From positions 24,050,852 to 24,114,851 of the forward strand of contig OY743171.1 of the NCBI GenBank assembly GCA_963555705.1: 64,000 nt of DNA. Direction: 5' to 3'. A model generated the notes under the pieces. That model made no database searches, had not been told where the DNA came from, and saw nothing but the letters and a program-made list of their open reading frames with translations. The DNA comes from Ligustrum vulgare. Taxonomy: Eukaryota > Streptophyta > Magnoliopsida > Lamiales > Oleaceae. The position numbers were made by a program, and so were the translations under genes. Positions 4,900 through 54,200 of the stretch are shown here, one piece after another. Within the stretch, counting starts at the first letter, position 1, and every line of letters starts with the position of its first letter.

Positions 4900-4911
4900 G
4901 CTTTGATACCA
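4900..4911 (-). promoter_or_regulatory. primer-binding site, initiator tRNA-Met type
   Basis: Minus strand reads TGGTATCAAAGC, two bases inside the 5' LTR. It matches the usual plant LTR-element PBS TGGTATCAGAGC with one change. This sets the element's orientation. Confidence 0.88.
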
Positions 4912-4913
4912 TA

Positions 4914-5939
4914 TGATGAGAATCCGGGAGGGGGTCCTCGTCGTAGCTCGCGGAATAAAGCTTGGAAAGTTCCGAATCCAGGTTGGAACGGACGATAACA
5001 ATGCAACCTCGACCTCACGACGCAAGAACCAGGGGTATATTAAACCCGAGACCCGTTACGATGCGGAGATAAGAACCACAAAGGGGAATGCCACAAGGAA
5101 TGTCAAGATCCTTGATAAGTTCAATTGTTTTGAACGCCACAAGATTTGAATCTTGATAAGTTCGTTGTTTAAAGGGAAAATCATCACCTTTAGAGAGAGT
5201 AAAAATACTCAATAATTTTATTCATCAAAAGTCTTCTCTTTTTACATTGAATGGAAAAGCATATAAATAGGCAAAATAAAACCTAATAGCTAAATGACTC
5301 TGAATAGAATTCTAATTATGCTAAAATAGCTAAAATAACTAAAATTACCAAAATTACCAAAATAAACTAGAACTAAACAAAACCCTAGCTGCCTAATTAA
5401 TTCAAAACTACGGCGCCTAAGTTACGGTCGTGACTTATGAGTTTACGGCCGTAAGTAAGCTACGGATTAAAAATTAAAAACATATGTTACGGCCGTGACA
5501 ATTTTATTTACGGCCGTAAGTGACATTCTAAACAAAATAATAAAAGTTACAAAACTCTGTTTATGGCCGTAAGTAAATGGATTACGGCCGTGAATACTTC
5601 CACTTCATTTAAGGTCGTGAGATCATGCGTTACGGCCGTAATTGCCTTTCTGCCCAATTTCGTGATGTTGATGTTACGGCCGTAAAAATGGGTGTTACGG
5701 CCGTAAGTCAGCTTCTGCCCAATTTTCTGATCCTTTGACATTAATTGATCTGATTTGAATCTCGACTCGAGCCCAACATGAAACTTGTTCATTTTCCTAT
5801 GTAGAATATTGTTGAATTGCCCCTATCTTGATTTCTCATTTTTGACGCCTTTTCCGGATCACATCATCCCCTCTTCCTTTAAGATGATTCGTCCTGAATC
5901 ATAACATTGTTCTTAGAGCTTCTTTTTCGGATCACATCA
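4914..5939 (-). repeat. 5' LTR of the 2114-5939 element
   Basis: Direct repeat of 2114-3140 and the upstream LTR for minus-strand transcription. It carries the same run of ACGGCCGT palindromes (about 5425-5705), with partly different single-base changes from the other LTR (for example TACGGTCG near 5427 and AAGGTCG near 5612). Confidence 0.93.
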
Positions 5940-11310: not shown

Positions 11311-11386
11311 TATGATTGTGAAAACTTGGGATACAAGAAATCGAGTGCGAGTAGAATACCTTTAAAAATAATTATTCAAAAGATAA

Positions 11387-12771
11387 GCCCCTGTTCTGTT
11401 TGCTGTTTTGAGGTCGTTTTCTGTTTTTATTTTCGAAAACGCTAAAAACGCGTTCTCTTTACCATTTTCGAAAACGCATTTTGGAAAACAAAAAAAAAAA
11501 ATTGTACACAAAACGGAAAACGCCCGAAACATCGTTTTGGGCGTTTTGTGTGTATTTCGACAAAAAATGTCCAAAACGCGGAAAACGCGTTTTGGGATTT
11601 TTTTTTTTTTTTTTTTTTTTTTATAGAATTATCTTAACTTAGAACTAAGCTTAATATAAAGTTTTTATTTTTTTATTATTTTTTTAGAATTATCCTAGTT
11701 TGGAACTAAGCCTAAATAAAGATTTTTTTTTTTTTTTTTTTTTTGAGAATTATTCTAACTTGGAACTAAGCTTAAATAAAGTTTTATTAAATTCAATATC
11801 AACATTACAAAAAAAAATTAAGTGAGAATTCTTATTATTATATTTCAAAAAATGCACCAAACTGCATGGAATCGAAATGTACCAAACACGCAAAACTCTA
11901 CTAAACAAAGCTAAATCTACCAAAAAAGAGCAAAATTTCACCAAGGTGCCTAATCTAATACCAAAAGCGCGATATGTACCAAATTGTGAGATGTTTCAAA
12001 TTGTGCCCAAGAAATTTACCAAAATGCGCAAATAGCTCTAAAATTTACGAAAACAATGCCAATTGTACTGTGCTAACCAAGATGTGTGAAATGTTAAAAA
12101 ATGCTTCAAAATGTACTAAAATACACTATATATACCAGAATTCACCAAAATATACAAAATGCATGATATCGACCAAAATGCGCAAATCGTACCAGTGTGC
12201 AAATGTACTAAAATACAAGAAAACAAACCAAGTTAAATGAAATTTATCAAAATGCACAAAAATCTACTAAAATTCTAGAAATGTACCACATGAGAATTGT
12301 AGCAGGCAAGACCTATGATTAATCCTAGAAATGTGCCTGAATCAAATGTGGACTGATTACTCCACAAGGTCAAGATGACTTTTAAATTTATTTTGTTTAA
12401 TCAAACTCTGTATGAGTAATTAGAGTTACATGTATTATGGAAGTAATTTGGACTTGAATATTATGTTATTAATTTCTTATAATATTTTTTTGGAGTTGAA
12501 CATTAATGACATTATTATTTGGTCCAAAAAAAAGTTAAACAATATAGATTGTTTAATATAATTCAGAAGCAAATTCATTGAAAATAGTATAAGTTGTATT
12601 CTGCAAAATTTCAAACAGAACGTGTTTTCCAGCTTTTTATTTTCAAAAACAGTTTTCAGAAATGACAAACAGAACACGTTTTCAGCAACATTGAAAATAA
12701 AAATAAAAACAGGAAATACAAAACATTTTCCAAAATGAAAATACAAAATAAAATACAAACAGAACGTCACC
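11387..12771. mobile_element. non-autonomous DNA transposon, copy 1 (possibly hAT-like)
   Basis: Left end GCCCCTGTTCTGTTTGCTGT and right end CAAACAGAACGTCACC share an inverted core GTTCTGTTTG / CAAACAGAAC. A second, shorter copy lies at 49489-50329. Both share a left arm rich in TTTTCGAAAACG, a centre with about three copies of GAATTATCCTAACTTGGAAC..AAGC, and a right arm rich in AAAACAGTTTTCAGAAATGA. No coding capacity. The target duplication is not clear, so the superfamily is uncertain. Confidence 0.65.
11860..12280. repeat. degenerate short-repeat expansion inside transposon copy 1
   Basis: Many variants of ACCAAAATGCGCAAAT / TGTACCAAATTGTGC-like words, about 20-25 bp apart, in the middle of copy 1. 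The sister copy at 49489 lacks this block, so it expanded after the copies separated or was lost from the other. Confidence 0.6.
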
Positions 12772-26690: not shown

Positions 26691-29009
26691 TTAGGTATAG
26701 CGACCCAGAATTTTTATGCAATAAATAATTATTTTAATATTTAGAAAATTGTGTCGCTACTATTTCATTTATTATTTTGAAATTAATGCCGCGACGGATT
26801 CGTCTAGCCAAGTCAAGAAATATCGAATTTGTTCGATTTTAAATTTAATATTCGAATTTCTAAAATTTTATTATTTTAATTATTTATTCAAAGTATTATT
26901 TTCAAAAAAATCTTTCTAAAATCCAAATTTTTCCCACATGTCTTCTTCTTTACACCAAGACAACAATTCTTTATACAAAAACATCATCATTTTTATACAA
27001 ATAAATATTACACCTAATTCTACACTATCATATTCTATAGTACCAACTCAATACATATTCTTCCCCATCACAACTCACGTTCCCCACCTTGTTTCCTTCT
27101 TAATTATTCTTTCCATCTCATTGTGTACAATCAACAAGCATCTCCACACATGAACAATTGGAACACCTCAAAAGCATCATCATTATCATCACTTACACTA
27201 CTCTTTCCAGCAAGGTAAAATGCTTTCTTCTCCTTTATCACCAACTCCACATACCACAATTTCGGACCCATCCATTTTCAGATTTCCACAATTCAATATA
27301 TATAAACATCATCATCATCACTACCACAATTATCAGTTGCAGCCCCAAACCATAACCACGAAACTTATGAATCATCAGCATCATCACCTCATTCCAACTG
27401 CAGTTCCTTTTCTGCAGCTAGACAACCAAGCATCATCAGTCCTCCTCCACCACCAGCAGCTCTAATGTCAAGCAACAATACTTCAATCCCCAATTTTTGC
27501 AATCACCATAACATCAAAACCACCTCAAACGCCCCACTGCCATTTCAGCCACTAGCAGCTCCACCATGACCGTCACCACAGTATCACCAAACTCATTATC
27601 ATCATCACCACCCACTTCGAAACCACCCAGCTGCACCACAACACCACCAAAATCAACCCCAACAGCCTACTGCCCAACATCTACCCTCGGTTTAGAACCA
27701 AATTCATCATCAATATCAGCACCATAGCCAATCACCAATTGAATCAGCGTCATCATCATCATCAACACCCTCTGCACTCATCGTCTGAGCCGCCCAACTA
27801 CCTCAAGTTCACCGCCGCATCACTACCCAACTCAAGAATCAAACCAACAGACCACCAACCATTCACAAACATATCCATGACTCCCAATCGAATCAATCAA
27901 CACCAATTGAACAGCCAACCAAACTCAGCTTTCCTCATCTGTACCACCACCGAGTTTCATTGAATCACCACCAATTTGCAATCAACCCAACATCCACGAA
28001 AACCAATAAATAGAAGAAGCCCAGTTACTTACCTCAATCGCCGCTCCCTTCGCCGGAATTTCAGACCCAAATCGCGACCTTCAAGCCTCGGTCTAGCCAC
28101 ATCTCGCATATAAACCGCACAAAAACCTAGTCTACCACCTCTCCCGCAGTTCGCCGCACCTGCGCCGGAGTATTCGCCGGCAATTCCGTCGGTCAGAGAC
28201 CATTTCTTTTCCTGATCGCCGAAATGTGCGTAGAGGTTGAGAGAGAGAGAATGGATCGCGAGAGAGTGAGTTGAGAGAGAGAAAAACAGATCTGATATAT
28301 TTAACTTTCCAGAATTTGCAAATCAGTCCCTGACATTTTAATTTGTTTCCATTCAGTCCTTTTAGTTTTAAAATCATCAATTTCAGCCCTTAAGTTTTAA
28401 ATGATTTTAATCAGCCCTTTCATTTTAAAATTCTGATCAATTCAGTCCCTGCTGAATTACTTTATTTGATTTTAAGCCCAAGTTTCAAAGATATTCACTT
28501 TAGTCCTTCAACTTTCAAAAGTATTCATTTTTGTCCCTCAACTTTCAAAACATCAATTTTAGTCCTCAAATTATAATTTATCATTTTGAACTATATATTC
28601 GATATACTAAAGTGACTTATTGGCTAAGACGAAGCGTACGGAGAATTTAAAGAAATTGAAGTCATTCCCGCTCAACTTTGCACTCGTCGGATTTGAGGTA
28701 GACTCGCACTTATTAATTGATTTAAATTATGATTTCAGATGAATGTCATGTGACTTGTGAAAGTCAATTTTTAAGAAAAGCAAGTATGTTTTTATGAAAG
28801 GTAAATATACCTTATGTTGTTATGAAAAGTAAGTATGTTTTTATGAAAAGAAAATATACTTTATGCTTTTACGAAAAGTAAGTATACCCTATGCTTCACG
28901 AAAATGTTTTTTTGGATCATTGCTATGAAATCAATCTACCAAGATTGTTTTGGGTCCCATATGATAAGTTATGATATGTTAAGGGGACCGGAGTTTTAGT
29001 AGCGCTACA

Positions 29010-29387
29010 CATAAGAATTCTTGCCACCTAAGTTCGGTAACATTCTTGTGTCTCCTATGTTTATGAGGATTTGCCACGAAGTTCGGTAAAATTCCTATCT
29101 TTCCATATGTTTATGAGGATTTACCACCTAAGTTCGGTAAAATTCCTGTCGCATATGTTTATGAGGATTTCGATCCTATCTTATGTTATGATGCAATTGA
29201 TCCCTATGAATTTCAGAAAATTATGCTTGGTATACTTACTACATAAGAATTCTTACCACCTAAGTTCGGTAAAATTCTTATGTTTATGAGGATTTCGATT
29301 TTATCCTATGTTATGATGAAAACTTACTGTTATTATGATTTTACTGCATAAGAATTCTTGCCACCTAAGTTCGGTAAAGTTCTTGTG
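29010..29387 (+). repeat. array of five hairpins in the LTR (5' copy)
   Basis: Five inverted repeats at 29010-29050, 29066-29096, 29116-29147, 29242-29282 and 29347-29387 share the loop ACCTAAGTTC (once ACGAAGTTC) between CC and GG. The best (29242) pairs CATAAGAATTCTTACC with GGTAAAATTCTTATG. The AGGATTT versions pair with AATTCCT, so stem bases change on both sides together, and other changes are G-U compatible. Confidence 0.75.
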
Positions 29388-29666
29388 TCTATTTATGTTT
29401 ATGAGGATTTCAATCATATCTTATGTTATGCTTTCAAAAGAAATTATGCTTGGCATAATTAAAATGTTTTTATAAGTATATGATTTTCAAAGAGCTATTT
29501 TCAAAGAGCCTATGATTTGCAAAATATGTCCCGTGCTGTAATGCAAAATATGAGTTTTATCAAGAGCAGTTTTATAAAGAAGCTCTATCAATGCCCGTTT
29601 TATAAAGAGCCGGGATTTATGTGTTTAATCATCTTATAAATTAAATTAATTTGCGATGAGTCTACT

Positions 29667-29690
29667 GAGTATTTCCCCCATGAAATACTC
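29667..29690 (+). promoter_or_regulatory. conserved LTR hairpin before the CACCC/TTTGCAG block
   Basis: GAGTATTTC-CCCCAT-GAAATACTC, a perfect 9-bp stem, is followed by ACCC and then TTTTGCAG. At the same relative place the solo LTR at 13546 has GAGCT-TT-AGCTC (15645-15656) before ACCCC and TTTCAG. The solo LTR at 9376 has, on its minus strand, GTGTATTTC-TTTT-GAAATGCTC (9739-9760). The second LTR copy has it at 36373-36396. Function unknown. Confidence 0.65.
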
Positions 29691-30056
29691 ACCCTACTTT
29701 TAACAGTTTTGCAGATTTCGGAGACGGTGGCGAGCGATGAATGATGGTGGCAATAATCGTTGAACGGTTGAAAGTTTGACGTTAATGATTTCCGTATTTT
29801 CCAAACAATCGAATAATTTAGAGAAGTTCATTTATTTGAGAAATTATGATATTGGCAATTTCTTTACAATATTAATGGTTCGATTTACTATTTCAAATGG
29901 TTTCATAAATGTTTTCAATTTTAGCGGCCATTACAGTTTATTTAATGTTGCCAAAAAATGAATTTCAATTATTTCTTCCGCAAAAATATTATTCGAAAAA
30001 TTTAGACAGAAAATGACGTAGTGAATCGGGTATACGGAACTCGGGGCGCTACAAGT

Positions 30057-30068
30057 TGGTATCAGAGC
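30057..30068 (+). promoter_or_regulatory. primer-binding site, initiator tRNA-Met
   Basis: TGGTATCAGAGC lies three bases after the 5' LTR, an exact match to the common plant PBS. Confidence 0.95.
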
Positions 30069-30885
30069 TAGTCTGCGTTTCTGTAGACTGGAAAAATTTT
30101 CAAAAAGAATTTTCAAGAAATATTTTCCATTATAAAATTTTATTGATGAAGATTGCCACTGCCATCATTCGTTCCACCAACTCCGAGGTAAAGAAGTTTA
30201 TAATATTTAAATTTATTTCAGTATTTCGAATACTCATTTTACTAATTTATGAGAAAGAATGAAGAGTATTTCGGATACTTATGATTTATGAGAAATAAGA
30301 ATGTATTTCTTCGAAAATAATGATGTTGTTATGCTTTGTCATAACTTATATGCTTTAATGTATGAGTATGAGAAATTTTTTAAAAGAAAACGAGTGTTGA
30401 GCATAATGGGAATAATATGATTTTATTGAGAATTAAGTAATGGATATTATGTTGAGTTAATTTATTATGCCTCTATGTTGAAGAGAAATTTATTATGAAG
30501 TTTGGCTTTGTGAATAAATTTTGGGAATATGATTTATGGCATATATTTATAAGTATGAGTAACTTTTGAGCCAATTAAGGTATGGAAGGAAGTGATATTG
30601 TGATATTGAAAAATATGATTTGAAACTGTTATGTTGAGGAATTATAAATTGAATTATGAGATATTTTGATGATATTGAAGTGTTGGAATCATTTTCAATA
30701 TTTTTAGATCGTTGTGATCAAATGTGGAGTTATTTATTATTGTGAGTTATGAAGTATGCTTATGGTTTGGATAAGTCCAAATTACAAGGGAGACTCTATC
30801 CAGAATTTTATCATTTGGAATTAAGAGCATAATATGATAAGCATCCACTAAAGGAATTAAGGTTAGACATGCAAGATCATTTACA
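30069..30885. other. internal leader of the cargo element, no gag
   Basis: AT-rich with scattered stops in all plus-strand frames. A short ATG frame at 30148 (MKIATAIIRSTNS) runs to a donor-like GGTAAAG but has no gag similarity. Confidence 0.5.
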
Positions 30886-31029
30886 TCACAAACGAGATTT
30901 AGTAGATGATAGCAGAGATTTTATTATTTTCTCATAAGGAGAACACACAAGAGTCACACTGGAAAGGAAATACATGAAACACACGAAAGCATAAGAGAAA
31001 AACATGGAAAGATCCTCAGAATGAGAGAT

Positions 31030-31230
31030 GTGTTTCCGGAGTAGCCGTATCCTACCACCTCTGATCTTTTGAGGAAATAAAGAAACCTTCAAAGAGGTGT
31101 GTTTCGAGAGTAAGAATACTCCGTAATCTACCACCTGGAATCTTTGAAGTACACACAAGATTTAAACATTAAGGAAATCCTAGTAAATGGAGGGGTGTCT
31201 CGAGAGTGAGAATACTCCGTACTCTACCCC
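31030..31230 (-). repeat. three-copy repeat with a short hairpin, downstream of the LOG gene
   Basis: Copies near 31030-31063, 31096-31135 and 31186-31228 share GTGTTTCGAGAGTAAGAATA then CTCCGTAATCTACCACC. Within them GAGTA-AGAA-TACTC (copy 2) and GAGTG-AGAA-TACTC (copy 3, G-U possible on the plus strand) form a small stem-loop. The array lies immediately 3' of the LOG stop codon on the minus strand, so it may be in its 3' UTR. Confidence 0.6.
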
Positions 31231-31245
31231 CACCTATTCTAAGAT

Positions 31246-31899
31246 TCAAAGAGTTAAATTTACATTAACCGGACTCCATTTTCGCTTGATTCCCCTTCCT
31301 TGCGACCAATCTATCTTAACCCCTGCTGGATCTTGTATTGAGATATATGACTGCAGCTTATCCAGTAGTTCATCAATAGTAGGAGCAGAAATAAGAAGCC
31401 TTCTGGAAAATGGAGAGATGAATCCCTGTTCCACAGCATAATCAAGAAAGGTTAACAAACCATCAAAGAAATTGTTAACATTCAGAAGCCCAATAGGCTT
31501 AGTATGGAGATCTAGTTGAGCCCACGAGGTAATGTTAAAAATTTCTTCTAAGGTACCAAAACCTCCGGGCAGGGCTATAAAGGCATCAGAACCATATAGC
31601 ATACAAGTTATGCGTTCATGGATGGATAAGGTTTGAACTTCATGCCCTCGTGTTTTTCCTGCAACATCTACCAAAGGGACAGGTATGACACCGATTACTT
31701 TTGATTTCTCTGCAAGAGCAGATTGGGAAACACAACCCATTAGACCACTGCTACCACCCCCATATACAAGAGTGATACCTTTTTCCCCCAGTTTCTTTCC
31801 AAGATCTACAGCCGCTTCTAGATAACCGAAGCCTTTCCCTACTTTTGATCCACAAAATACACAAATAGTTTTGATCTGTCGAAGTTTTGGTGCTTCCAT
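31246..31899 (-). CDS. LOG-family cytokinin riboside 5'-monophosphate phosphoribohydrolase, retrotransposon cargo
   Basis: The intact intronless gene encodes 217 residues, close to the 210-230 of plant LOG proteins. LOG enzymes hydrolyse cytokinin nucleotides to the active free base plus ribose 5-phosphate in cytosol and nucleus. Visible motifs: N-terminal ICVFCGS (12-18), the nucleotide-binding loop YGGGSSGLMG (46-55), HERITCM (94-100) with the conserved Arg96, and the signature PGGFGTLEE (111-119) with the catalytic Glu. WAQLDLHTKPIGLLN (126-140) and VEQGFISP (156-163) also match the family. The usual Arg-Lys pair after the His-x segment is Arg-Ile here, so activity needs testing. The C-terminal tail (190-217) is basic. 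ATG at 31899 is the first in frame after a TATA-like box. It lies antisense inside a young LTR element, upstream of nothing gag-pol-like, and shares its orientation with the neighbouring Cys-rich gene. Lack of introns suggests capture through RNA. Confidence 0.92.
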   Translation of the reverse strand: MEAPKLRQIKTICVFCGSKVGKGFGYLEAAVDLGKKLGEKGITLVYGGGSSGLMGCVSQSALAEKSKVIGVIPVPLVDVAGKTRGHEVQTLSIHERITCMLYGSDAFIALPGGFGTLEEIFNITSWAQLDLHTKPIGLLNVNNFFDGLLTFLDYAVEQGFISPFSRRLLISAPTIDELLDKLQSYISIQDPAGVKIDWSQGRGIKRKWSPVNVNLTL

Positions 31900-31973
31900 C
31901 TTTGATAGTAAAGAAGGGAAAACTTACGAAGAAGATGTGATTTTGGGATGCCTGAACTATGAAATATGTTTGG

Positions 31974-31983
31974 CTATTTAAAG
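31974..31983 (-). promoter_or_regulatory. TATA-like box of the LOG cargo gene
   Basis: Minus strand CTTTAAATAG, about 75 bp upstream of the ATG. It is embedded in the near-palindrome GGCTTTAAATAGCC and preceded by a long poly(T)/poly(A) tract (31987-32015). The same core occurs before the neighbouring gene. Confidence 0.55.
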
Positions 31984-31987
31984 CCGG

Positions 31988-32018
<31 letters not shown>

Positions 32019-32124
32019 ACTGTTTTTTGATTGATTCTGAAAAAGTAAAGATTTACTTTTGACAAAATCAGCCCACTTTTGAATATTTTTATCGTATCGA
32101 GGCTGTCACCTTTCGGCGATTTAA

Positions 32125-32219
32125 TATTTATTTCCAGCTTTATCAAACCTCGAGAAAGGAAAATATATTTATTTCCAGCTTTATCAAACCTCGAGAAAAG
32201 AAAAATATATTTTATTTCC
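32125..32219 (-). repeat. 41-bp tandem repeat in the promoter region of the LOG cargo gene
   Basis: Two full copies and a start of a third: TATTTATTTCCAGCTTTATC plus AAACCTCGAGAAAGGAAAA, starting near 32125, 32166 and 32208. It lies between the stop of the Cys-rich gene and the LOG TATA-like box and could be an upstream activating element. Confidence 0.7.
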
Positions 32220-32265
32220 AAAACGCGTGAAAGAAAGCAGCAAAATATTTTAAAAAAGATTTACC

Positions 32266-32817
32266 TTATATCATTGCTGAACTGCCAGAAGCCTCATTTT
32301 GTAAAACAGACTGGCAAACAGGATCTTTCGATATTATATTTTGGAGACTATAACGATTTTTGTCCTCGTTAAACTGAGCGTATAAGGAGAGAAGTTCACG
32401 TTGTACATAACCACTTGGGTGCGTCTCAAGAGTCAGTCGAATATCATCCAAAGACTCCTTACTCAGTCCACCCTTTATGAATTCGATTTTATCATCCCGA
32501 TTAGTAGAAGAATATCCTACTGATTTGCAACGTGTATTACAGTTCCAACGAGCACATTTGTAGCAACCACCCAGTCTTTTTGCTCTTCGTTTCTTTGCGA
32601 ACGTGCTTTTGCCTAAACCAGGCATATGTTTTGGAAATGTTGATGGTAATTCACCAGATAGTCGAACCTTTGCTTCTATCAACCAGCGAACATCTTCTGG
32701 AATATCATGAGCCATTAGCAACCTCAATCTTTCGAGCCTTATTTTATAGATCTTTCTCAGATCATTCATAGGAAGACTGGAATAATACTTGCGAATGTTA
32801 GAAAGAATGATATCCAT
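32266..32817 (-). CDS. small basic four-cysteine protein, retrotransposon cargo, resembling plant-virus Cys-rich nucleic-acid-binding proteins
   Basis: Intact intronless frame of 183 residues from ATG at 32817; the frame extends five codons upstream but without an ATG. N-terminal 1-65 is predicted helical and rich in Leu/Arg. At 66-84 a basic stretch GLGKSTFAKKRRAKRLGG leads straight into a compact cluster CYKCARWNCNTRC (Cys 85, 88, 93, 97), followed by an acidic, soluble C-terminus. The order Gly-x-Ser/Thr, Arg-rich patch ending R-R-A, then C-x2-C and two more Cys recalls the small Cys-rich nucleic-acid-binding proteins of carlaviruses, which act as silencing suppressors and symptom factors. 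That is resemblance by motif, not proof. The Cys spacing (2-4-3) and extra terminal regions differ. Alternatives are a captured host zinc-finger protein or an element-specific accessory protein. It lies 367 bp upstream of the LOG gene, same strand. Confidence 0.75.
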   Translation of the reverse strand: MDIILSNIRKYYSSLPMNDLRKIYKIRLERLRLLMAHDIPEDVRWLIEAKVRLSGELPSTFPKHMPGLGKSTFAKKRRAKRLGGCYKCARWNCNTRCKSVGYSSTNRDDKIEFIKGGLSKESLDDIRLTLETHPSGYVQRELLSLYAQFNEDKNRYSLQNIISKDPVCQSVLQNEASGSSAMI

Positions 32818-32849
32818 TGTTTGATGATTCAACCTCTTCTCAGCATGAA

Positions 32850-32860
32850 CTATTTAAAAG
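32850..32860 (-). promoter_or_regulatory. TATA-like box of the Cys-rich cargo gene
   Basis: Minus strand CTTTTAAATAG, about 33 bp upstream of the ATG, sharing CTATTTAAA (plus-strand view) with the LOG promoter. This implies a very short leader. An ATG at 32845 with a 5-codon frame would lie upstream of the expected start site. Confidence 0.5.
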
Positions 32861-33388
32861 CGTAAAGGATTTGAGTGAATCCGCGTGATGTTGTGACCAG
32901 CAAGAAAGCGCAGGATTATTTTAATGAAAAGAGGAGACAAGAAGTAATGCGCTGTTAAATTTTATCGATAAAGGAGATTTGATTGGAGATTTGGAATATT
33001 TTCTTGGATTATGGGTACTGATATTTTGTTATAATAATGATAATCATGGTATAGTGTGTTGATACGTGGAAAGTGAATTGGAGACCGTATCGAATTAGAG
33101 TTAATACGTATATACAAGTGAAAGAAATACTTTGCAGGAAATGTGGTGACATTTAAGTATAGAATCTTAGTTTTGGGAGATATTTGTTTTCTGAATTTTG
33201 GGTTACAAATATTGGAAAGATAAGTTGATAATATTATGTTGATATGTTTGGGTATATTACGTAGAGAAGATATTCAGGTAATTCTTTGATTATTTTTGGA
33301 ATTTTCGATGATAAGAAGAAGAGATTCTGATTAAGTATTCAGAAATTTTAAGATTAAGTAAGTTTAATTTCGAGGACGAAATTATTTT
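32861..33388. other. internal 3' part of the cargo element
   Basis: No gene. Upstream region of the Cys-rich gene on the minus strand. On the plus strand it ends with the pol-end-like TTTCGAGGACGAAATTATTT before the purine tract. Confidence 0.5.
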
Positions 33389-33401
33389 AAGGAGGTAAGA
33401 T
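33389..33401 (+). promoter_or_regulatory. polypurine-tract region before the 3' LTR
   Basis: AAGGAGGTAAGAT abuts the LTR; purine-rich but interrupted by two T. Confidence 0.7.
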
Positions 33402-36400
33402 TATAGCGACCCAGAATTTTTATGCAATAAATAATTATTTTAATATTTAGAAAATTGTGTCGCTACTATTTCATTTATTATTTTGAAATTAATGCCGCGA
33501 CGGATTCGTCTAGCCAAGTCAAGAAATATCGAATTTGTTCGATTTTAAATTTAATATTCGAATTTCTAAAATTTTATTATTTTAATTATTTATTCAAAGT
33601 ATTATTTTCAAAAAAATCTTTCTAAAATCCAAATTTTTCCCACATGTCTTCTTCTTTACACCAAGACAACAATTCTTTATACAAAAACATCATCATTTTT
33701 ATACAAATAAATATTACACCTAATTCTACACTATCATATTCTATAGTACCAACTCAATACATATTCTTCCCCATCACAACTCACGTTCCCCACCTTGTTT
33801 CCTTCTTAATTATTCTTTCCATCTCATTGTGTACAATCAACAAGCATCTCCACACATGAACAATTGGAACACCTCAAAAGCATCATCATTATCATCACTT
33901 ACACTACTCTTTCCAGCAAGGTAAAATGCTTTCTTCTCCTTTATCACCAACTCCACATACCACAATTTCGGACCCATCCATTTTCAGATTTCCACAATTC
34001 AATATATATAAACATCATCATCATCACTACCACAATTATCAGTTGCAGCCCCAAACCATAACCACGAAACTTATGAATCATCAGCATCATCACCTCATTC
34101 CAACTGCAGTTCCTTTTCTGCAGCTAGACAACCAAGCATCATCAGTCCTCCTCCACCACCAGTAGCTCTAATGTCAAGCAACAATACTTCAATCCCCAAT
34201 TTTTGCAATCACCATAACATCAAAACCACCTCAAACGCCCCACTGCCATTTCAGCCACTAGCAGCTCCACCATGACCGTCACCACAGTATCACCAAACTC
34301 ATTATCATCATCACCACCCACTTCGAAACCACCCAGCTGCACCACAACACCACCAAAATCAACCCCAACAGCCTACTGCCCAACATCTACCCTCGGTTTA
34401 GAACCAAATTCATCATCAATATCAGCACCATAGCCAATCACCAATTGAATCAGCGTCATCATCATCATCAACACCCTCTGCACTCATCGTCTGAGCCGCC
34501 CAACTACCTCAAGTTCACCGCCGCATCACTACCCAACTCAAGAATCAAACCAACAGACCACCAACCATTCACAAACATATCCATGACTCCCAATCGAATC
34601 AATCAACACCAATTGAACAGCCAACCAAACTCAGCTTTCCTCATCTGTACCACCACCGAGTTTCATTGAATCACCACCAATTTGCAATCAACCCAACATC
34701 CACGAAAACCAATAAATAGAAGAAGCCCAGTTACTTACCTCAATCGCCGCTCCCTTCGCCGGAATTTCAGACCCAAATCGCGACCTTCAAGCCTCGGTCT
34801 AGCCACATCTCGCATATAAACCGCACAAAAACCTAGTCTACCACCTCTCCCGCAGTTCGCCGCACCTGCGCCGGAGTATTCGCCGGCAATTCCGTCGGTC
34901 AGAGACCATTTCTTTTCCTGATCGCCGAAATGTGCGTAGAGGTTGAGAGAGAGAGAATGGATCGCGAGAGAGTGAGTTGAGAGAGAGAAAAACAGATCTG
35001 ATATATTTAACTTTCCAGAATTTGCAAATCAGTCCCTGACATTTTAATTTGTTTCCATTCAGTCCTTTTAGTTTTAAAATCATCAATTTCAGCCCTTAAG
35101 TTTTAAATGATTTTAATCAGCCCTTTCATTTTAAAATTCTGATCAATTCAGTCCCTGCTGAATTACTTTATTTGATTTTAAGCCCAAGTTTCAAAGATAT
35201 TCACTTTAGTCCTTCAACTTTCAAAAGTATTCATTTTAGTCCCTCAACTTTCAAAACATCAATTTTAGTCCTCAAATTATAATTTATCATTTTGAACTAT
35301 ATATTCGATATACTAAAGTGACTTATTGGCTAAGACGAAGCGTACGGAGAATTTAAAGAAATTGAAGTCATTCCCGCTCAACTTTGCACTCGTCGGATTT
35401 GAGGTAGACTCGCACTTATTAATTGATTTAAATTATGATTTCAGGTGAATGTCATGTGACTTGTGAAAGTCAATTTTTAAGAAAAGCAAGTATATTTTTA
35501 TGAAAGGTAAATATACCTTATGTTGTTATGAAAAGTAAGTATGTTTTTATGAAAAGAAAATATACTTTATACTTTTACGAAAAGTAAGTATACCCTATGC
35601 TTCACGAAAATGTTTTTTTGGATCATTGCTATGAAATCAATCTACCAAGATTGTTTTGGGTCCCATATGATAAGTTATGATATGTTAAGGGGACCGGAGT
35701 TTTAGTAGCGCTACACATAAGAATTCTTGCCACCTAAGTTCGGTAACATTCTTGTGTCTCCTATGTTTATGAGGATTTGCCACGAAGTTCGGTAAAATTC
35801 CTATCTTTCCATATGTTTATGAGGATTTACCACCTAAGTTCGGTAAAATTCCTGTCGCATATGTTTATGAGGATTTCGATCCTATCTTATGTTATGATGC
35901 AATTGATCCCTATGAATTTCAGAAAATTATGCTTGGTATACTTACTACATAAGAATTCTTACCACCTAAGTTCGGTAAAATTCTTATGTTTATGAGGATT
36001 TCGATTTTATCCTATGTTATGATGAAAACTTACTGTTATTATGATTTTACTGCATAAGAATTCTTGCCACCTAAGTTCGGTAAAGTTCTTGTGTCTATTT
36101 ATGTTTATGAGGATTTCAATCATATCTTATGTTATGCTTTCAAAAGAAATTATGCTTGGCATAATTAAAATGTTTTTATAAGTATATGATTTTCAAAGAG
36201 CTATTTTCAAAGAGCCTATGATTTGCAAAATATGTCCCGTGCTGTAATGCAAAATATGAGTTTTATCAAGAGCAGTTTTATAAAGAAGCTCTATCAATGC
36301 CCGTTTTATAAAGAGCCGGGATTTATGTGTTTAATCATCTTATAAATTAAATTAATTTGCGATGAGTCTACTGAGTATTTCCCCCATGAAATACTCACCC

Positions 36401-36759
36401 TACTTTTAACAGTTTTGCAGATTTCGGAGACGGTGGCGAGCGATGAATGATGGTGGCAATAATCGTTGAACGGTTGAAAGTTTGACGTTAATGATTTCCG
36501 TATTTTCCAAACAATCGAATAATTTAGAGAAGTTCATTTATTTGAGAAATTATGATATTGGCAATTTCTTTACAATATTAATGGTTCGATTTACTATTTC
36601 AAATGGTTTCATAAATGTTTTCAATTTTAGCGGCCATTACAGTTTATTTAATGTTGCCAAAAAATGAATTTCAATTATTTCTTCCGCAAAAATATTATTC
36701 GAAAAATTTAGACAGAAAATGACGTAGTGAATCGGGTATACGGAACTCGGGGCGCTACA
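33402..36759 (+). repeat. 3' LTR of the cargo-carrying element
   Basis: Near-identical to 26696-30053 at a constant offset of 6,706. Differences seen: CAGCAG/CAGTAG (27457 region), TTTTGTCC/TTTTAGTCC (28530 region), TTCAGATG/TTCAGGTG (28738 region), AGTATGTTT/AGTATATTT (28786 region) and TTATGCTTT/TTATACTTT (28862 region). Confidence 0.95.
35716..36093 (+). repeat. array of five hairpins in the LTR (3' copy)
   Basis: Same array in the 3' LTR, unchanged by eye. Confidence 0.75.
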
Positions 36760-37002
36760 TTAGGTGGGATGGAGTGGGGTGCAGGGGTGGAGACAAAAAC
36801 ATTAGGTGTTGGTGGTATTTGGGTAAAATTATAATACCTTTAATTTAAAATAAAATAGATAGTTATTTTTATATAATATTATATTTATATTATATTTATT
36901 TATTATAATTAACACCTGATTTTTAAAAAGAAATTTTAAGTTTATTTAAATTAAAAAGTGATAATTTTAAGTTTGTAGTTATGTACTTTTCCCTAGAATT
37001 AA

Positions 37003-42068: not shown

Positions 42069-43010
42069 TGATATGATCCGGACCAGGCATCGAAGGGCGA
42101 AATCGAGCCATCGGCAATATAACAATGATCTACGTGCAAAACGGATCAAGTTCTATGTTGGGGTCGAGCTAAGAAGAGGGACGGATCAAGCCGAGCCGAG
42201 AAAACGAAGTTATTTGGGCAGAAAATCCATTACGGCCGTAATGGAGGACCTTCAATGCCGTAACCCATATATTCACGGCCGTAAATCATGTTATCACGGC
42301 CGTAATCAATTATCGAAGAAAAAGGAGAATTTCAGTAGAACGAGGCTTACGGCCGTAAGCCTGGAAGTTACGGTCGTAACATTCAAAGCAGGGGAATTTC
42401 ACGTCCCTAAGAAATTCGTCACGGCCGTAACATATAACACAGTTTTGGATCAGAGAGGCATTTTACGGCCGTAAAAGAATTATTCACGACCGTAAATGAG
42501 TAGCGGCAAGATTTTTCGGATTTTCAATTATTTTATTTCCTTTTTTGATTTTTAGGTTATTTTCCTAATTTAGTGTTTTAGTTTAATTAGAATTCTATTT
42601 TGAGTAAATTAGAGGCTATGTTATTTTGCTTATTTATATTCTTTACCATGATTGTAAACAAAAAGTTTGAGATTTGAGATTAATAATATTTGAGAGAGGA
42701 TTCTCCAAATTGAAAGATTAAGTTTTTCCCTTTTATTTCGAACTTATCAAAGATCCGTTCTTTGTGGAGTTCACCCAACGAACTTATCAAGGAATTGACA
42801 ACCCTGTGGCGTTCACCAATCTTGGTTCTTCAATCCGCATCGTCATTAATTGCGTCGTGATTGTTGGGTCAAGGTCTTATCGTCAAACATATCTTTTAAT
42901 TTCCGTTTATTTCTTCGTTTTCTTGTTATTTTCGCGTCAAGTCTGATTTAGATCTTTCCTAGGTTTTAGTTGTCATTTTTCGACGAGATTCGTCGATTGG
43001 GATCGCCTCA
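42069..43010 (+). repeat. 5' LTR of the gag-only gypsy element
   Basis: About 942 bp. It holds roughly nine ACGGCCGT palindromes or near copies between 42230 and 42500 (for example CATTACGGCCGTAATGG and CTTACGGCCGTAAGC), the same feature as the LTRs at 2114 and 4914, and the related start TGATRTGATCCGG. Confidence 0.92.
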
Positions 43011-43012
43011 TC

Positions 43013-43024
43013 TGATATCAGAGC
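43013..43024 (+). promoter_or_regulatory. primer-binding site
   Basis: TGATATCAGAGC, two bases inside the LTR, one change from TGGTATCAGAGC. Confidence 0.85.
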
Positions 43025-43286
43025 TTGGATCTATTTCAGATTCTTGCGTTTATTAGATTTCTTGATTTTTTTCTTATCCTTCGCGTTCTTCGTGTCAGTC
43101 ATAAATTTTTTTCAGTTTGATTCATAAGAGTCAGTTCCAAAAATTCAAAAGTGTTTTTCTTCTTCATTTTTCGTCCAAATCCAATTCTCTTTTTTCTGCC
43201 ATACTCGTAGTCCAATTCTCTGGCAGATTAAAAAAAACACCGAAAATTCCCAAATATTCCGAATTTCCTTGTTCGTGTCTTAAAAA

Positions 43287-45297
43287 TGTCTGATAGAGAG
43301 GTTTCCACATCTTCATCTTCTATTGGAGACAGAAAAAAACTCGGGGTGTGAATAGAAGGAATGAACAGGGTAACAATGATATTGCAGCAATGAGGGCACG
43401 ATTTGAGAGGTTTATGGCTCAGATGGAGAATCGAGGTGCAGAACGTGAGCAAAGACCTCGGGATCAATCTCATGATGGTTCTCGGGTTAGGAGAGGTAAT
43501 AGGCGTCGGTTGGTATGGATGATGAGGACATGAGAAGTGAAAGTGGAAGTATATCTTTCGGAAGTATGCGAATGAGGGATAGAGGAGATAGGTATGAGAG
43601 GAGGCATGATAGGGAGCGTCGTGATGCTAGGAGGCATCGTGGGGGTAGAGATTTTGTTTATGATGACCTTGGGAAAATTAAAGTGAAGTACCATTGTTCC
43701 AGGGTAGGAGTGATCCGGAGGCATACTTGGATTGGGAAACCAAGGTTAAACGACTATTTGATTGTCACAATTATTCGGAGAAGAAGAAGATGAAATTAGT
43801 TGTGATTGAATTCACAGATTATGCCAATATTTGGTGGGATCAATTAGTGACGGGTAGGAGGAGGAACCTTGAGGAGCCGGTGGAGACTTGGGGTGAATTA
43901 AAAACGATAATGAGGAAGCGGTTTGTGCCGACTCATTATTATAGGGATATTTATCAGAGGCTGTAGGGTATGACTCAGGGATCGAGGAGTGTAGAGGATT
44001 ATCACAAGGATATGGAGGTGGCGATGATTCGAGCTAACGTGGTGGAGGATCGGGAAGCTACGATGGCTAGGTTTTTGAGTGGGCCGAATAGAGACATTGC
44101 CAATATCATTGAGCTGCAACATTATGTGGAGCTAGAGGATATGATGCATATGGCCATGAAGATGGAAAGGCAGCTAAGGCGAAAGGGGGCAGCAAGACAC
44201 TCACCATCTTATCCTACATCACAACCGAAGCAAGAACATCATGATGAACATAACCCAAAAGGGAAGGAGGAGCCTACAACGAAAGGTAAAAATATTTCTG
44301 AAACTACTCGGGATAGAAATATTAAGTGTTTTAAGTGCTTGGGAACGGGTCATATAGCATCCCAGTGTCCAAATAGGAAGCTAATGATCTTGCATGATAA
44401 TGGTGAAATTACTTCCGAGGATGAATTTAAAGGAATGCCTAAGTTAGTGAATGTTGGGGCTAGTAGTAGTAGTAGTGATGAGGAAGGGCTGACCTATGTT
44501 GTTAAAGATTCACTTGTTAATCGGCGTGTCCTTAGTACTAGGGTCAGGGTGGATGAAATTGGTGAGCAAAGGGATAATCTCTTCCATACTAAATTCTTAG
44601 TGGGTAAAAAGGTTTGTGGTATGGTGATTGACGGGGGAAGTTGTATTAATGTGGTTAGTAGTTAGTACAATGTTGGTTGAGAAATTGGGTTTGAGCTTGA
44701 TAAAACATCCGAACCCTTATAAATTGCAATGGCTGACCGAGTCGGGAGAAATTAAGGTAAATAAGCAGGCTAGGGTCAATTTTGCCATCAGGGGTTATAA
44801 GGATGAGGTGGTTTGTAACGTGGTACCTATGCATGTTGGCCATATTTTGTTGGGGAGACTCTGGCAACATGATAGGAGGGTAGTACACGATGGGTTTAAA
44901 AATCGATATTCTTTCGTGAATGGTGGAAAAAGGATCACTCTTGCTCCGCTATCACCTAAAGAGGTCTAAGAGTGTTGAGGCCACGACCTCAGAAAAAGGA
45001 GAGGGTGTGAAAATTGAAAATAAGAGAGTTGAGGCCACGACCTCAGAAAAAGGTGACCTTGAGAGTGAAAAGAAAAAGAAAAGAGAGTCCACTACAAAAA
45101 TGAGTTTATTTGCATTTTCTAACACATCCCTCCCCAGTTTTACGAAATCTGTTTTGCAGGGACATAAATCAAACCATAAACTTAAGGCCGGGAAGATATC
45201 CGTTGGCAAAAACGAGCAGGACAAAAGTCTAAAGGATCACACAAAACTTAAAAATGATCATCAAGCTCAGAAAAGCAGGAGGAGTTTGAAAAGTTGA
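43287..45297 (+). pseudogene. gypsy gag with truncated aspartic protease
   Basis: ATG near 43287 (MSDREVSTSSSSIGDRKK) starts a gag whose frame breaks several times (about 43345, 43510, 43700, 43964). Retrotrans_gag part: DPEAYLDWETKVKRLFDCHN, then WWDQLVTGRRR and WGELKTIMRKRFVP. CCHC knuckle: CFKCLGTGHIASQC (about 44328-44370). Protease-like start: GMVIDGGSCINVV (about 44620), then after a shift LVEKLGL and GHILLGRLWQHD. The frame passes LAPLSPKEV and stops at 44966-44968. A different frame with a duplicated EATTSEKG (44975-45060) runs to 45297. Gag would form particles; pol is absent here. The decay suggests it no longer makes gag. Confidence 0.85.
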
Positions 45298-45327
45298 CCA
45301 AAAATGGATTCGAGGTCGAATCCTTTT

Positions 45328-45341
45328 CAAGAGAGGGAGTA
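45328..45341 (+). promoter_or_regulatory. polypurine tract
   Basis: CAAGAGAGGGAGTA directly before the 3' LTR. Confidence 0.8.
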
Positions 45342-46272
45342 TGATATGATCCGGACCAGGAATCGAAGGGCAAAGTTGAGCCATCGGCAATATGATAATG
45401 ATCTACGTGCAAAACGGAGCAAGTTCCATGTTGGGGTCGAGCTGAGAAGAGGGACGGATCAAGCCCAGCCGAGAAAACAAAGTTATTTGGGCAGAAAATC
45501 CATTACGTCCGTAATGGAGGACCTTCACGGCCGTAACCCATATATTCACGGTCGTAAATCATGTTATCACGGCCGTAATCAATTATCGAAGAAAAAGGTG
45601 AATTTCAGCAGAACGAGGCTTACGACCGTAACATTCAAAGCAGGGGCATTTCACGGCCGTAAGAGATTAGTCACGGTCATAACTAATAACACAGTTTTGG
45701 ATCAGAGAGGCATTTACGGCCGTAAAAGAATTATTCATGGCCGTAAATGAGTAGCGGCCAGATTTTCCGGATTTTCAATTATTTTATTTCCTTTTTTGGT
45801 TTTTAGGTTATTTTCCTAATTTAGTGTTTTAGTTTAATTAGAATTCTATTTTGAGTAAATTAGAGGGTAGGTTATTTTTCTTATTTATATTCTTTACCAT
45901 GATTGTAAACAATCAGTTTGAGATTTGAGATTAATAATATTTGAGAGAGGATTCTCCAAATTGAAAGATTGAGTTTTTCCCTTTTATTTCGAACTTATCA
46001 AAGATCCGTTCTTTGTGGCGTTCACCCAACGAACTTATCAAGGAATTGACAACCCTTGTGGTATTCACCAATCTTGGTTCTTCAATCCGCATCGTCATTA
46101 ATTGCGTCATGATTGTTGGGTCAAGGTTTTACCGTCAAACATATCTTTTAATTTTCGTTTATTTCTTCGTGTTCTTGTTATTTTCGCGTCAAGTCTGATT
46201 TAGATCTTTCCTAGGTTTTAATTGTCGTTTTTCCGCGTTTTTCAACGAGATTCCCCGATTGGGATCGCGTCA
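45342..46272 (+). repeat. 3' LTR of the gag-only gypsy element
   Basis: About 931 bp, direct repeat of 42069-43010 with a short internal deletion in the palindrome array near 45625 and several C-to-T or G-to-A changes inside palindromes (TACGTCCGTAAT, CACGGTCGTAA). Confidence 0.92.
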
Positions 46273-49200: not shown

Positions 49201-49488
49201 TTTTATTTAAAGTAAAAAAAATGATAAACAAGAATCTTGACTAACCAAAATTACTTTTCAAGAAAATAATTCAAATAGAGGTTGTCATGTGTTGTTTATA
49301 TAAAAAACTAAACGTTTACCAAAGCAAGGCTATTCTCTGTTGGGTATGATTGATATGTCAAGATTTTCTATGAAAAAAGAAAACATTTTCCATCTTTTAG
49401 CAACTTATTATAGGGTGTGATTTCAAAAAAAAAAAAAAAAAGGGTGTGATTTCAAAAAAATAAATACATAAATAAATAAAAAATTTTA

Positions 49489-50329
49489 GGCCCTGTTCTC
49501 TTTGCTATTTTGAGGTCGTTTTCTATTTTTATTTTCGAAAACGTTAAAAACGCGTTATCTTTACCATTTTCGAAAACGAAAAAAAAAAAATTGTACACAA
49601 AACGCAAAACGTCTAAAACCTCGTTTTGGACGTTTTTTGTGAATTTCGATAAAAAATATCCAAAAAACGAAAAACGCGTTTTGAGAATTTTTTTTTAAAG
49701 AAATTATCTTAACTTGGAAGTAAGCTTAATATAAAATTTTTTATTTTTTTATTATTTTTTTTAGAATTATCCTAACTTGGAACTAAGCCTAAATAAAGAT
49801 TTTTTTTTTATTTTTTATTTTTGAGAATTATCCTAACTTGAAATTAAGTTTAAATAAAATTTTATCGAATTTAATATCAACATAATAATAAAAAAATTAA
49901 GTGAGAATTCTTGTTGTTATATTTCAAAAAATACACTGATAAATGGACTATGGTGGTTTTGAAAGAAATTGCATTTTCTGGATTTTAATAGAACTAGAGC
50001 TTTCTCAAATCCCAAATCTGACCAAGCTGTGTTAATATAGACTCTTAATACTTACATTAGTGTGTTGCATGTAACCATGTATTCAACGTATTGAGAAAAG
50101 AAATTTGAGTTTGAGTCATTAGTATTCTGTAAGCAAATTAATTAAAAATAGTTTAAGTAGTATTCTGCAAAATTTCAAACAGAACATGTTTTTCACATTT
50201 TCATTTTCAAAAACAGTTTTCAGAAATGACAAACCAAACGCGTTTTCAGCAAATTTGAAAACAAAAATGAAAATAGAAAATACAAAACATTTTCGAAAAT
50301 GAAAGCGCAAAATAAAATACAAACAGAAT
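49489..50329. mobile_element. non-autonomous DNA transposon, copy 2
   Basis: Left GGCCCTGTTCTCTTTGC, right end near CAAACAGAATAAG. It shares both arms and the centre with 11387-12771 but lacks the 400-bp short-repeat expansion. No coding capacity. Confidence 0.62.
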
Positions 50330-51236: not shown

Positions 51237-54200
51237 ATGGAGGCTTCACGACGAGGAGGGGGAATGGTACCGATATCACCGTCACAAACGCCGCGTTCTA
51301 GTGACAAAGCTGCGAGAGATCTGCGATCGGAGGGGAGTATGAGTGGAAAGCATGATAAGGATAAAGGGGTCAATGTGCAGGTCATTGTGCGATGCAGGTG
51401 AGTTAACTCATTGAGTTCTCTATGCTATAAGCGATTCGATGAAATCAAATTTTAGTGCTTATTGAATCTTCTGTTGTAGGCCATTGAGTGAGGACGAGAT
51501 GAGAATGCATACACCAGTAGTGATTTCATGCAACGATAACAGAAGAGAAGTTTGTGCTGTACAAAATATTGCTAATAAGCAGATCGATAGAAATTTCCTT
51601 TTTGATAAGGTCTTTTTACTATTTTTACTTTGTCAAGTTAACATACATGGGACAACAGCTCTTGCAATTTAATTTCCATTTTACAACTCAATTTATTTTT
51701 CTCGTTTCCATTCTCTTTTTCTTTCTTTTATTATGTGATCTGTTGAAGAAAAGAAAGTTATCGCTATTATGTTTAGGTCTTTGGTCCATCTTCCCAGCAA
51801 AAAGATTTATATGATCAGGCAGTCTGGCCCATAGTTTTTGAAGTTCTAGAGGGTTATAATTGTACCATTTTTGCATATGGACAAACTGGGACAGGAAAGA
51901 CTTACACGATGGAGGGTGGTTCGAGGAAAAAGGTTTGTTTTCTATTCTCTAGCCTCTAAAACATATTTGCTAAGTTTTTTAGTTTACTAGCATTTATAAC
52001 TTCATGTATGTTATTTGATTATTAATCTTATTAGAATGGGGAATTCCCAAGTGATGCTGGTGTCATTCCAAGAGCTGTTCGACAAATTTTTGATATCTTA
52101 GAAGCTCAAAATGCTGAGTATAGTATGAAAGTTACATTCCTAGAGCTGTACAATGAGGAAATAACGGATCTTCTGGCACCTGAAGAATGTCCAAAGTTCA
52201 TAGATGACAAATCAAAGAAACCAATAGCGTTAATGGAGGATGGAAAAGGTGGAGTTTTTGTTAGAGGTTTGGAAGAAGAGATTGTGACCACTGCGAATGA
52301 AATATATAAAATCTTGGAGAAAGGTTCAGCTAAAAGGCGAACGGCGGAAACCCTTCTTAATAAACAAAGCAGTCGTTCTCATTCTATATTTTCTATCACA
52401 ATTCATATCAAAGAGTTCACCCCAGAAGGAGAGGAGGTGATTAAATGTGGGAAGCTGAATCTTGTTGACCTTGCTGGCTCAGAAAATATTTCACGCTCGG
52501 GTGCTAGAGAGGTAAGAAGTTAATAATTTACAGTGCTAAGCTTTTGTACTCGTTATACTGTTTCCAAGGGTTAGGATGGGTGTGGAAACTTTTTGTTTAT
52601 GAGAATGAGATGTCATAAATAATTTCTCCAATGCAAGATGGTGTACTACTTGTACTGTTCCCATGGGGTGATATTGCACGTGAATGGACTTATTTTGTAG
52701 TAATATACTGGTAAACAAGAAATTTTGGAGGCTGTCAGGCATTACGAATTGCTTTTCCAAATCATGTTGTATACCTTCTTTACGCTTAAAGAAAATTGAT
52801 CTACTTTTGCAGGGAAGAGCAAGGGAAGCAGGTGAGATCAACAAGAGCTTGCTGACACTTGGTCGGGTCATAAATGCATTGGTTGAGCACTCTGGTCACA
52901 TACCATATAGGTATAGGTCCAATCAACTTCTCAATTATGTGTACAAATAGCCATACATTCTTCAGCGTAAATAAACTCTTACATCCAAAAACGTCACTTG
53001 AAATCTCAGAGACAGCAAATTAACAAGGTTGCTGAGAGATTCTCTTGGAGGGAAGACAAAGACATGTATAATTGCCACAATATCACCCTCCATTCACTGT
53101 TTGGAAGAGACACTCAGCACTTTAGATTATGCTCACCGTGCCAAAAACATAAAGAACAAACCAGAGGTCAGTGCTTTGATATTTTTGACAAAAAGAAAAA
53201 TGTTCTACAATTGTTGTTTCTTTACCTATTTATTGGATTGGACTAGTAGATAAAGTCAATTTTTATTTTATTTTTATCATTGCAGATTAATCAAAAGATG
53301 ATGAAATCTGCAATGATCAAGGATTTATACTCAGAAATTGACCGATTAAAGCAAGGTTGTTGATTGCTCCCTCTCCCTCTCCCTCTCCCTCTCTTTCTCT
53401 CTATGAGGTGTGAGTGAACTTTCCCTAGGTTCACTTAAAATAATGCAACCCAAAATCTTCATTCAAGTGCTATTCTTTACAATGATGTGTACCTTACAAC
53501 AATTTTATGTGCTTCAGAGGTATATGCTGCCAGAGAGAAGAATGGGATATATATACCAAGAGATCGCTATCTCCAAGAAGAGGCAGAGAAAAAGGTTTGA
53601 CATTAGGAACTTAGTCTAATGATGTTATAAAATTACTCAAAAGATTCAATTATGAAATTCGAAAGTTGTTATGTTTGTGCCCTTTCAGGCCATGTCTGAA
53701 AAGATTGAACATATGGAACTTGATTTAGAATTCAGGGACAAGGTATATTTAACATAAAAATATTGATTATTTGATATAATTTTCGTGGATACTAAAAAGA
53801 AATTTCATCCGTTAATAAATTGTTCTTTTGTAAGCAGCAACTGATGGAGATCCAAGAATTATACAACACTCAGCAGCAGTTGACTACTGAACTGAGTGAA
53901 AAACTTGAGAAGACCGAGGTGTGATAATTGAATGTTCACCTTATCCAAAATAAAAAGTTAATTACCATTTCCTTTGCCATTGAGGAATAATTATGCTACC
54001 TTTCTCTTCTTCATTCAGAAAAAGCTACAGGAAAATGAGAACGCATTGCTTGATCTTGAAGAAAGACACAGGCAGGCAAACGCAACAATAAAAGAGAAGG
54101 AATACCTAATATCCAATCTTCTTAACTCTGGTGGCCTCACTTTCCGTGCCTATTATTCTTCGACCTAGCATGATATATGACCTCTAATGTTGTTCCACTG

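Follow-up and report, generated by a model that had tools for sequence, protein, structure and literature searches.

A recently active LTR retrotransposon family of Ligustrum vulgare without gag-pol carries two antisense genes under purifying selection, encoding a predicted carlavirus-type nucleic-acid-binding protein and a LOG-like protein

We analyzed a stretch of 64,000 nucleotides from Ligustrum vulgare (the window), in which positions 26696-36759 form a whole long terminal repeat (LTR) element and 30054-33401 its internal part. The internal part holds two intact, intronless frames on the minus strand. One encodes a LOG-like protein of 217 amino acids, and the other a protein of 183 amino acids that is, by profile homology, a relative of the carlavirus nucleic-acid-binding proteins (NABPs). 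Both genes are under purifying selection between copies of the element. Its paired LTRs, target-site duplication, primer-binding site and purine-rich tract (Table 1) make the interval an LTR retrotransposon. It is not an autonomous one, which would have gag and pol: by eye, neither was recognized among frames of at least 60 amino acids in 29500-34000, and the Pfam scan covered the two named proteins.

A preliminary description, made from the letters without database searches, had reported exact LTRs, an exact target-site duplication, a perfect primer site, the absence of pol and the two open antisense frames. All of this stands except the first item. TTAGG is present on both flanks and TGGTATCAGAGC is exact at 30057, while the LTRs differ at 5 of 3358 positions (27457, 28532, 28739, 28788 and 28865). 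The resulting Kimura two-parameter distance (K80) of 0.0015 dates the insertion to about 0.06-0.11 million years ago, with assumed substitution rates. We take the primer-binding site to be of the initiator-Met type.

The 183-residue protein had been described as small, Cys-rich and basic. It is so, and it also proved recognizable, with scores above the curated cut-offs for both Viral_NABP (PF05515; E 3.4e-07, 30.9 bits against 23) and Carla_C4 (PF01623; E 5.1e-06, 26.8 bits against 20.9). Of 404 candidates in a protein search, 352 reached E ≤ 0.01, and 120 of these were listed; Orobanche, Striga, Populus, Acer and Xanthoceras are among the hosts named in these listed matches. When the window protein was aligned with 35 of the 120 homologues, each of the two profiles was matched by 33 of the 36 members at E ≤ 0.001. 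A PDB search returned no NABP relative. The family to which this homology assigns the protein includes known silencing suppressors. The carlavirus cysteine-rich protein (CRP)/NABP is reported to be a pathogenicity determinant and a silencing suppressor (passages of PMC8742542). A carlavirus relative is reported to act as an activator in the nucleus and a suppressor in the cytoplasm, with small RNAs shifting from 24 to 21 nucleotides (passages of PMC7588395). The earlier guess that the second protein may suppress silencing thus gains backing from homology.

The 217-residue protein matched PF03641 (E 1.3e-33), contains the PGGxGTxxE motif, and shares 49% identity with AtLOG3 and 43% with AtLOG8. 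In a 43-row tree whose bootstrap had not settled and whose long branches join at the root, 24 rows of the element's type and 17 canonical rows, a gymnosperm among them, formed two separate groups (98/93). To compare residues, we aligned the best 120 matches to the window protein with 120 canonical matches; the former are called transposable element (TE)-type here, a label that does not establish that each resides in an element. The second Glu of GTLEE, a residue that differs between PDB entries 5zbj and 5zbk, was kept in 118 of the 120 TE-type rows. The active-site Arg was retained in 112 of them and in the window protein. The Lys that follows this Arg was present in 120 of 120 canonical LOGs but in only 8 of 120 TE-type rows, and is Ile in the window protein. 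Conversely, LxLxL occurred within the last nine residues of 92 of 120 TE-type rows and of no canonical row (0 of 120), and in 86 of these 92 tails at least two of the four preceding residues are basic (e.g. KRKLDLTLRL). The tail resembles an EAR motif (LxLxL), which recruits TOPLESS.

Given the loss of Lys and the new tail, the LOG-like protein may have taken on a new role, in which the tail of most relatives would be regulatory. The preliminary description had proposed that the element could raise cytokinin. The retained Glu and Arg leave room for such an activity, whereas the missing Lys and the LxLxL tail of most relatives weaken the proposal.

We searched the genome (1.385 Gb, 51 contigs) with each protein. 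There were 8795 first-look candidates for the NABP and 9447 for the LOG. The best 150 of each were scored, and all were reported as 100% identical to the query (over 183 amino acids for the NABP) and free of stops, with the LOG matches all on contigs C1-C4. One fetched LOG match (L042) nonetheless has a single nonsynonymous difference. The genome thus has, for each protein, at least 150 copies reported at 100% identity. The possibility that the LOG gene is a one-off processed copy was rejected on this count and on its having a clade of its own.

Twenty of the 150 scored places were then fetched for each protein, those chosen by the NABP being hand-picked across chromosomes. Within the NABP-chosen copies, 19 of 20 had an LTR pair that was 99.5-100% identical in its best block; none was found for L015. 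LTRs were much less alike between copies, where blocks over 300 bp were mostly 78%-98.7% identical to the window LTR (one, 63%). In the same sample, LOG DNA was 98.6-99.7% identical to the window in the 19 full-length copies, and NABP DNA 98.9-100%, the latter figure being biased by how the copies were chosen. In 18 of these 20 copies the internal region measured 3.0-3.5 kb (a boundary was not located in L015 and L017, which were excluded), such that the claim that gag-pol is entirely gone holds for the sampled family. By structure, recent movement and copy number, this is a recently active, high-copy, non-autonomous LTR family.

Two further patterns were seen among the copies. In L009-L028, whose internal genes are near-identical, the LTR could often be aligned to 26696-30053 in its 3′ half only, as though varied LTR 5′ halves had been joined to a single internal module. 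In addition, some NABP copies follow one another at intervals of 6.5-6.9 kb (C2: 76948056, 76954588, 76961119; C8: 22921778, 22928360, 22934943; C5: 20669350, 20676231, 20683112), the spacing expected of arrays whose adjacent copies have an LTR in common.

Selection was measured for each gene in the copies chosen by the other; the reverse pairings are biased by that choice and were not used. The LOG gene was full length in 19 of the 20 copies chosen by the NABP; in these and the window, all free of stops, pooled synonymous (pS) and nonsynonymous (pN) divergence were 0.0326 and 0.0019, a ratio of 0.057. The 18 synonymous changes were accompanied by 9 nonsynonymous ones against a neutral mean of 18.9, a number reached or undercut in 1 of 20,000 simulations. 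The NABP gene was full length and free of stops in all 20 copies chosen by the LOG, with a pS of 0.0569, a pN of 0.0102 and a ratio of 0.18. Here 27 synonymous and 22 nonsynonymous changes were counted, and 2 of 20,000 simulations fell as low (neutral mean, 35.4 nonsynonymous). These simulations took changes as independent. Neither ratio is near 1, and both antisense genes are under purifying selection between copies, as the preliminary description had supposed in calling the pair selected cargo.

The pattern of gaps was similarly uneven. Across 19 rows (the window and 18 copies), gapped columns numbered 0 of 654 in LOG and 0 of 552 in NABP, whereas they made up 26% of the spacer, 32% of the 5′ part and 48% of the 3′ part. 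Noncoding diversity between copies was unusually low (0.0046 in 31104-31253) around the repeated motif past the LOG stop. An A-run upstream of the LOG-like gene (window 31987-32016) ranged from 5 to about 40 A depending on the copy.

Homologues of both proteins occur in other plants at 50-80% identity. In three Orobanche gene models (P0017, P0018, P0022) the NABP and LOG domains are joined in one predicted protein. Among contigs under 100 kb, 8 sizes were shared between 105 NABP and 64 LOG matches where 2.5 were expected (51 of 20,000 randomizations as many). For contigs of at least 1500 bp the number was 5, with 0.48 expected and none of 20,000 randomizations as high. This test pairs contigs by size alone: 3 of the 8 are below 1,100 bp and likely include chance matches, and the two members of a 1514-bp pair are under different sources. 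Because of the fusion models and the shared contigs, we regard the pair, on comparative grounds, as an older linked cargo of eudicots that was not assembled in the window insertion.

Taken together, our data suggest that the selected antisense pair, the only recognized genes of this non-autonomous family, helps it manage its host. We consider this explanation plausible, if somewhat short of probable. Each antisense gene would have its own promoter, the candidates being the TATA-like stretches that are unchanged across all 19 aligned rows. The NABP, judging by its homologues, would bind RNA and/or DNA and weaken host small-RNA silencing of element transcripts; by analogy with its carlavirus relative, it might also act on host genes in the nucleus. 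The LOG-like protein, from its motifs, would be a repurposed phosphoribohydrolase, for which cytokinin release is possible but not implied. In most relatives, an LxLxL tail preceded by basic residues would recruit TOPLESS-type co-repressors or help nuclear entry. The joint effect of both proteins would be a cell state that permits retrotransposition, for which an autonomous partner element would provide gag-pol.

A more specific version of this explanation can be drawn, though we think it rather unlikely as a whole. The pair would be an old retrotransposon cargo lineage with an anti-silencing protein that carlaviruses also have, and with a LOG-derived protein that its LxLxL tail has made a nuclear co-repressor recruiter, possibly coupling the sensing of cytokinin nucleotides to transcription control. 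An element without gag-pol would thereby have come to rank among the commonest young families of its genome.

A 2020 review described what antisense extra genes do in plant LTR elements, and where they came from, as unknown (passages of PMC7264820). With a virus-protein relative for one such gene and amino-acid selection on both, it becomes testable whether a retrotransposon counters small RNAs with a suppressor of viral type. As an accessory protein of both, the NABP also connects plant RNA viruses and retrotransposons, and the LOG-like protein suggests that a hormone-enzyme scaffold may have turned into a regulator.

Several observations weigh against helping the family manage its host as the function of the pair. 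No relative turned up when viral contigs were scanned with the NABP, with the LOG and with the NABP alignment, and the virus link of the NABP therefore rests on its profile matches. Its structure model is weak (mean predicted local distance difference test score of 63), and the viral fold matches of that model are not significant, with betaflexivirus suppressors at ranks 1, 2 and 4. The LxLxL tail is absent from the last nine residues of 28 of 120 TE-type relatives, and the tail of the Ligustrum vulgare copies, VNVNLTL (VNLTL), fails the strict LxLxL criterion. As for a gag-pol partner, none was found: the 3′ ends of 20 of the 150 listed chromodomain matches lack the FNFEDEIILRR tail (at most 2 mismatches allowed), although 19 of these 20 are the C-terminus of one other family, making this search weakly informative. 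A DNA query with the LTR end, in which common words are skipped, also returned nothing. The fetched copies are best matches to the intact protein, so broken copies are under-sampled, and even with this bias toward intact copies the LOG match of L015 covers only 557 of 654 bases. Finally, a suppressor acting in trans should allow broken copies to ride free, which leaves selection copy by copy without an explanation.

Of the alternatives, an active LOG survives best. Cytokinin released by the enzyme would raise the hormone locally and bring about cell division or a meristem-like state where the element moves, with the NABP as a silencing suppressor. A LOG match in Pfam, near-universal conservation of the Glu and Arg in relatives and the strong constraint on the gene are all what such an enzyme would show. 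The Lys found in every canonical LOG aligned is nonetheless missing from most relatives, PGGYDTLNE replaces PGGxGTLEE in two of the three Orobanche fusion models, and the added tail requires a further role. We find this alternative credible but doubtful. It is improbable that the pair instead serves the plant, for example against viruses, with the element as a mere carrier; strong constraint on both genes would fit such a benefit, but many dispersed, near-identical recent insertions fit selection at the level of the element better. That function lies in the antisense RNA, with the frames incidental, seems very improbable: antisense transcripts have been discussed as possible regulators of LTR elements (passages of PMC7264820), but the changes counted in both genes point to selection on amino acids. 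The insertions are young, yet the reading of the frames as neutral passengers, open only through recency, was rejected as scarcely tenable given the nonsynonymous deficit, the gapless coding columns and the homologues in other plants.

The element resembles several known systems in part. Large retrotransposon derivatives (LARDs) are described as non-coding. The Ligustrum element is like a LARD in its long LTRs and in an internal region of some 3.3 kb that lacks gag-pol, but its two genes under selection set it apart. An initiator-Met primer-binding site is a criterion for the Chromovirus/Tekay lineage, yet it is common to other lineages as well; the element has this site but no reverse transcriptase or chromodomain integrase. 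The FNFEDEIILRR tail before the 3′ LTR may resemble a chromovirus pol end. Steinbauerova et al. 2011 reportedly described two Athila-like elements with LOGL4-like open reading frames. Citing that work, PMC9289625 in its available passages reports a YgdH/LOG domain in LTR-element consensuses of Citrus and Populus, which share with our family a LOG-family domain within plant Gypsy-type LTR elements. Those consensuses were built around reverse transcriptase, whereas the Ligustrum family lacks gag-pol, and in the same passages neither an NABP partner nor a test for selection nor an LxLxL tail is described. Grande, RIRE2, Retand and similar elements likewise have antisense genes that are conserved, lie immediately 5′ of the 3′ LTR and are supposed to have promoters of their own (passages of PMC7264820 and PMC11963269). 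The products of these genes are TRP28, SMC-like or unknown proteins, and most of the elements retain gag-pol, whereas the genes found here encode an NABP and a LOG-like protein in an element without gag-pol. Other extra open reading frames in sunflower Tekay elements have been proposed to touch RNA silencing (passages of PMC11728184).

The two proteins also depart from their nearest characterized relatives. Carlavirus NABP/CRPs (e.g. CVB p12) share PF05515, PF01623 and a basic stretch beside a Cys cluster, but are encoded by viruses, whereas the Ligustrum NABP lies in a retrotransposon and has a conserved C-terminal NREDKI...LETHPSG without a relative in the viral contigs scanned. Canonical LOGs such as AtLOG3 and AtLOG8 share the fold family, the Arg and the GTLEE motif, but fall in a separate clade, and most relatives of the element protein have lost the Lys and gained the tail. 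The preliminary description had known of no element with this pair. As far as the available passages go, a LOG domain in plant LTR elements is already in print, while the NABP partner and the tail appear to be new: searches of the open-licence PMC literature listed no report of an element NABP, of an NABP and LOG pair, or of a LOG with an EAR tail.

Table 1. Coordinates of the element and its features in the window
Feature	Positions	Strand	Remarks
Target-site duplication TTAGG, left copy	26691..26695		5 bp
5′ LTR	26696..30053	+	3358 bp; direct repeat with 33402-36759, 5 mismatches
Primer-binding site TGGTATCAGAGC	30057..30068	+	exact match; identical in 19/19 aligned rows
Repeated motif GAG.G.GT.TCGAGAGT.AGAATACTCCGTA.TCTACC	31094..31231		just beyond LOG stop; copies 31094-31135 and 31190-31231, 88% alike
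LOG-like gene, 217 aa	31246..31899	-	PGGFGTLEE motif; C-terminal VNVNLTL; PF03641; pN/pS 0.057
TATA-like CTTTAAATAG, putative promoter upstream of LOG-like gene	31974..31983	-	same in 19/19 aligned rows
NABP gene, 183 aa, predicted carlavirus-type nucleic-acid-binding protein	32266..32817	-	KKRRAKRL adjoining C-x2-C-x4-C-x3-C; PF05515, PF01623; pN/pS 0.18
TATA-like TTTTAAATAG, putative promoter upstream of NABP gene	32850..32859	-	same in 19/19 aligned rows
Purine-rich tract AAGGAGGTAAGAT and tail readable as FNFEDEIILRR-stop	33366..33401	+	directly 5′ of 3′ LTR, ends at 33401
3′ LTR	33402..36759	+	3358 bp; direct repeat partner of 26696-30053
Target-site duplication TTAGG, right copy	36760..36764		5 bp

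Other repeats were present elsewhere in the window. Another LTR-like pair, 89-96% alike by block, spans 42069-46248 and encloses a PBS-like TGATATCAGAGC at 43013, a gag-like frame with a zinc knuckle (43970-44665) and, preceding the second repeat, a TTCGAGGTCGAA stretch at 45309. Direct repeats at 2104-2580 and 4904-5379 are 91-97% alike and probably also form an LTR pair; a PBS-like TGGTATCAAAGC lies on the minus strand at 4900-4911. Copia-type fragments lie on the minus strand at 61170-63748, comprising an RVT_2 frame (61170-62576) and an integrase/SH3-like frame (62726-63748). Two stretches about 38 kb apart are related in the same order (11378-11804 to 49480-49882 and 12567-12764 to 50131-50328). 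By block they are 74-91% alike, a pattern that a dispersed repeat or an old duplication would leave. A frame at 52125-52523, perhaps an exon of a host gene, matches the central part of a kinesin motor domain (PF00225, E 8.3e-37).

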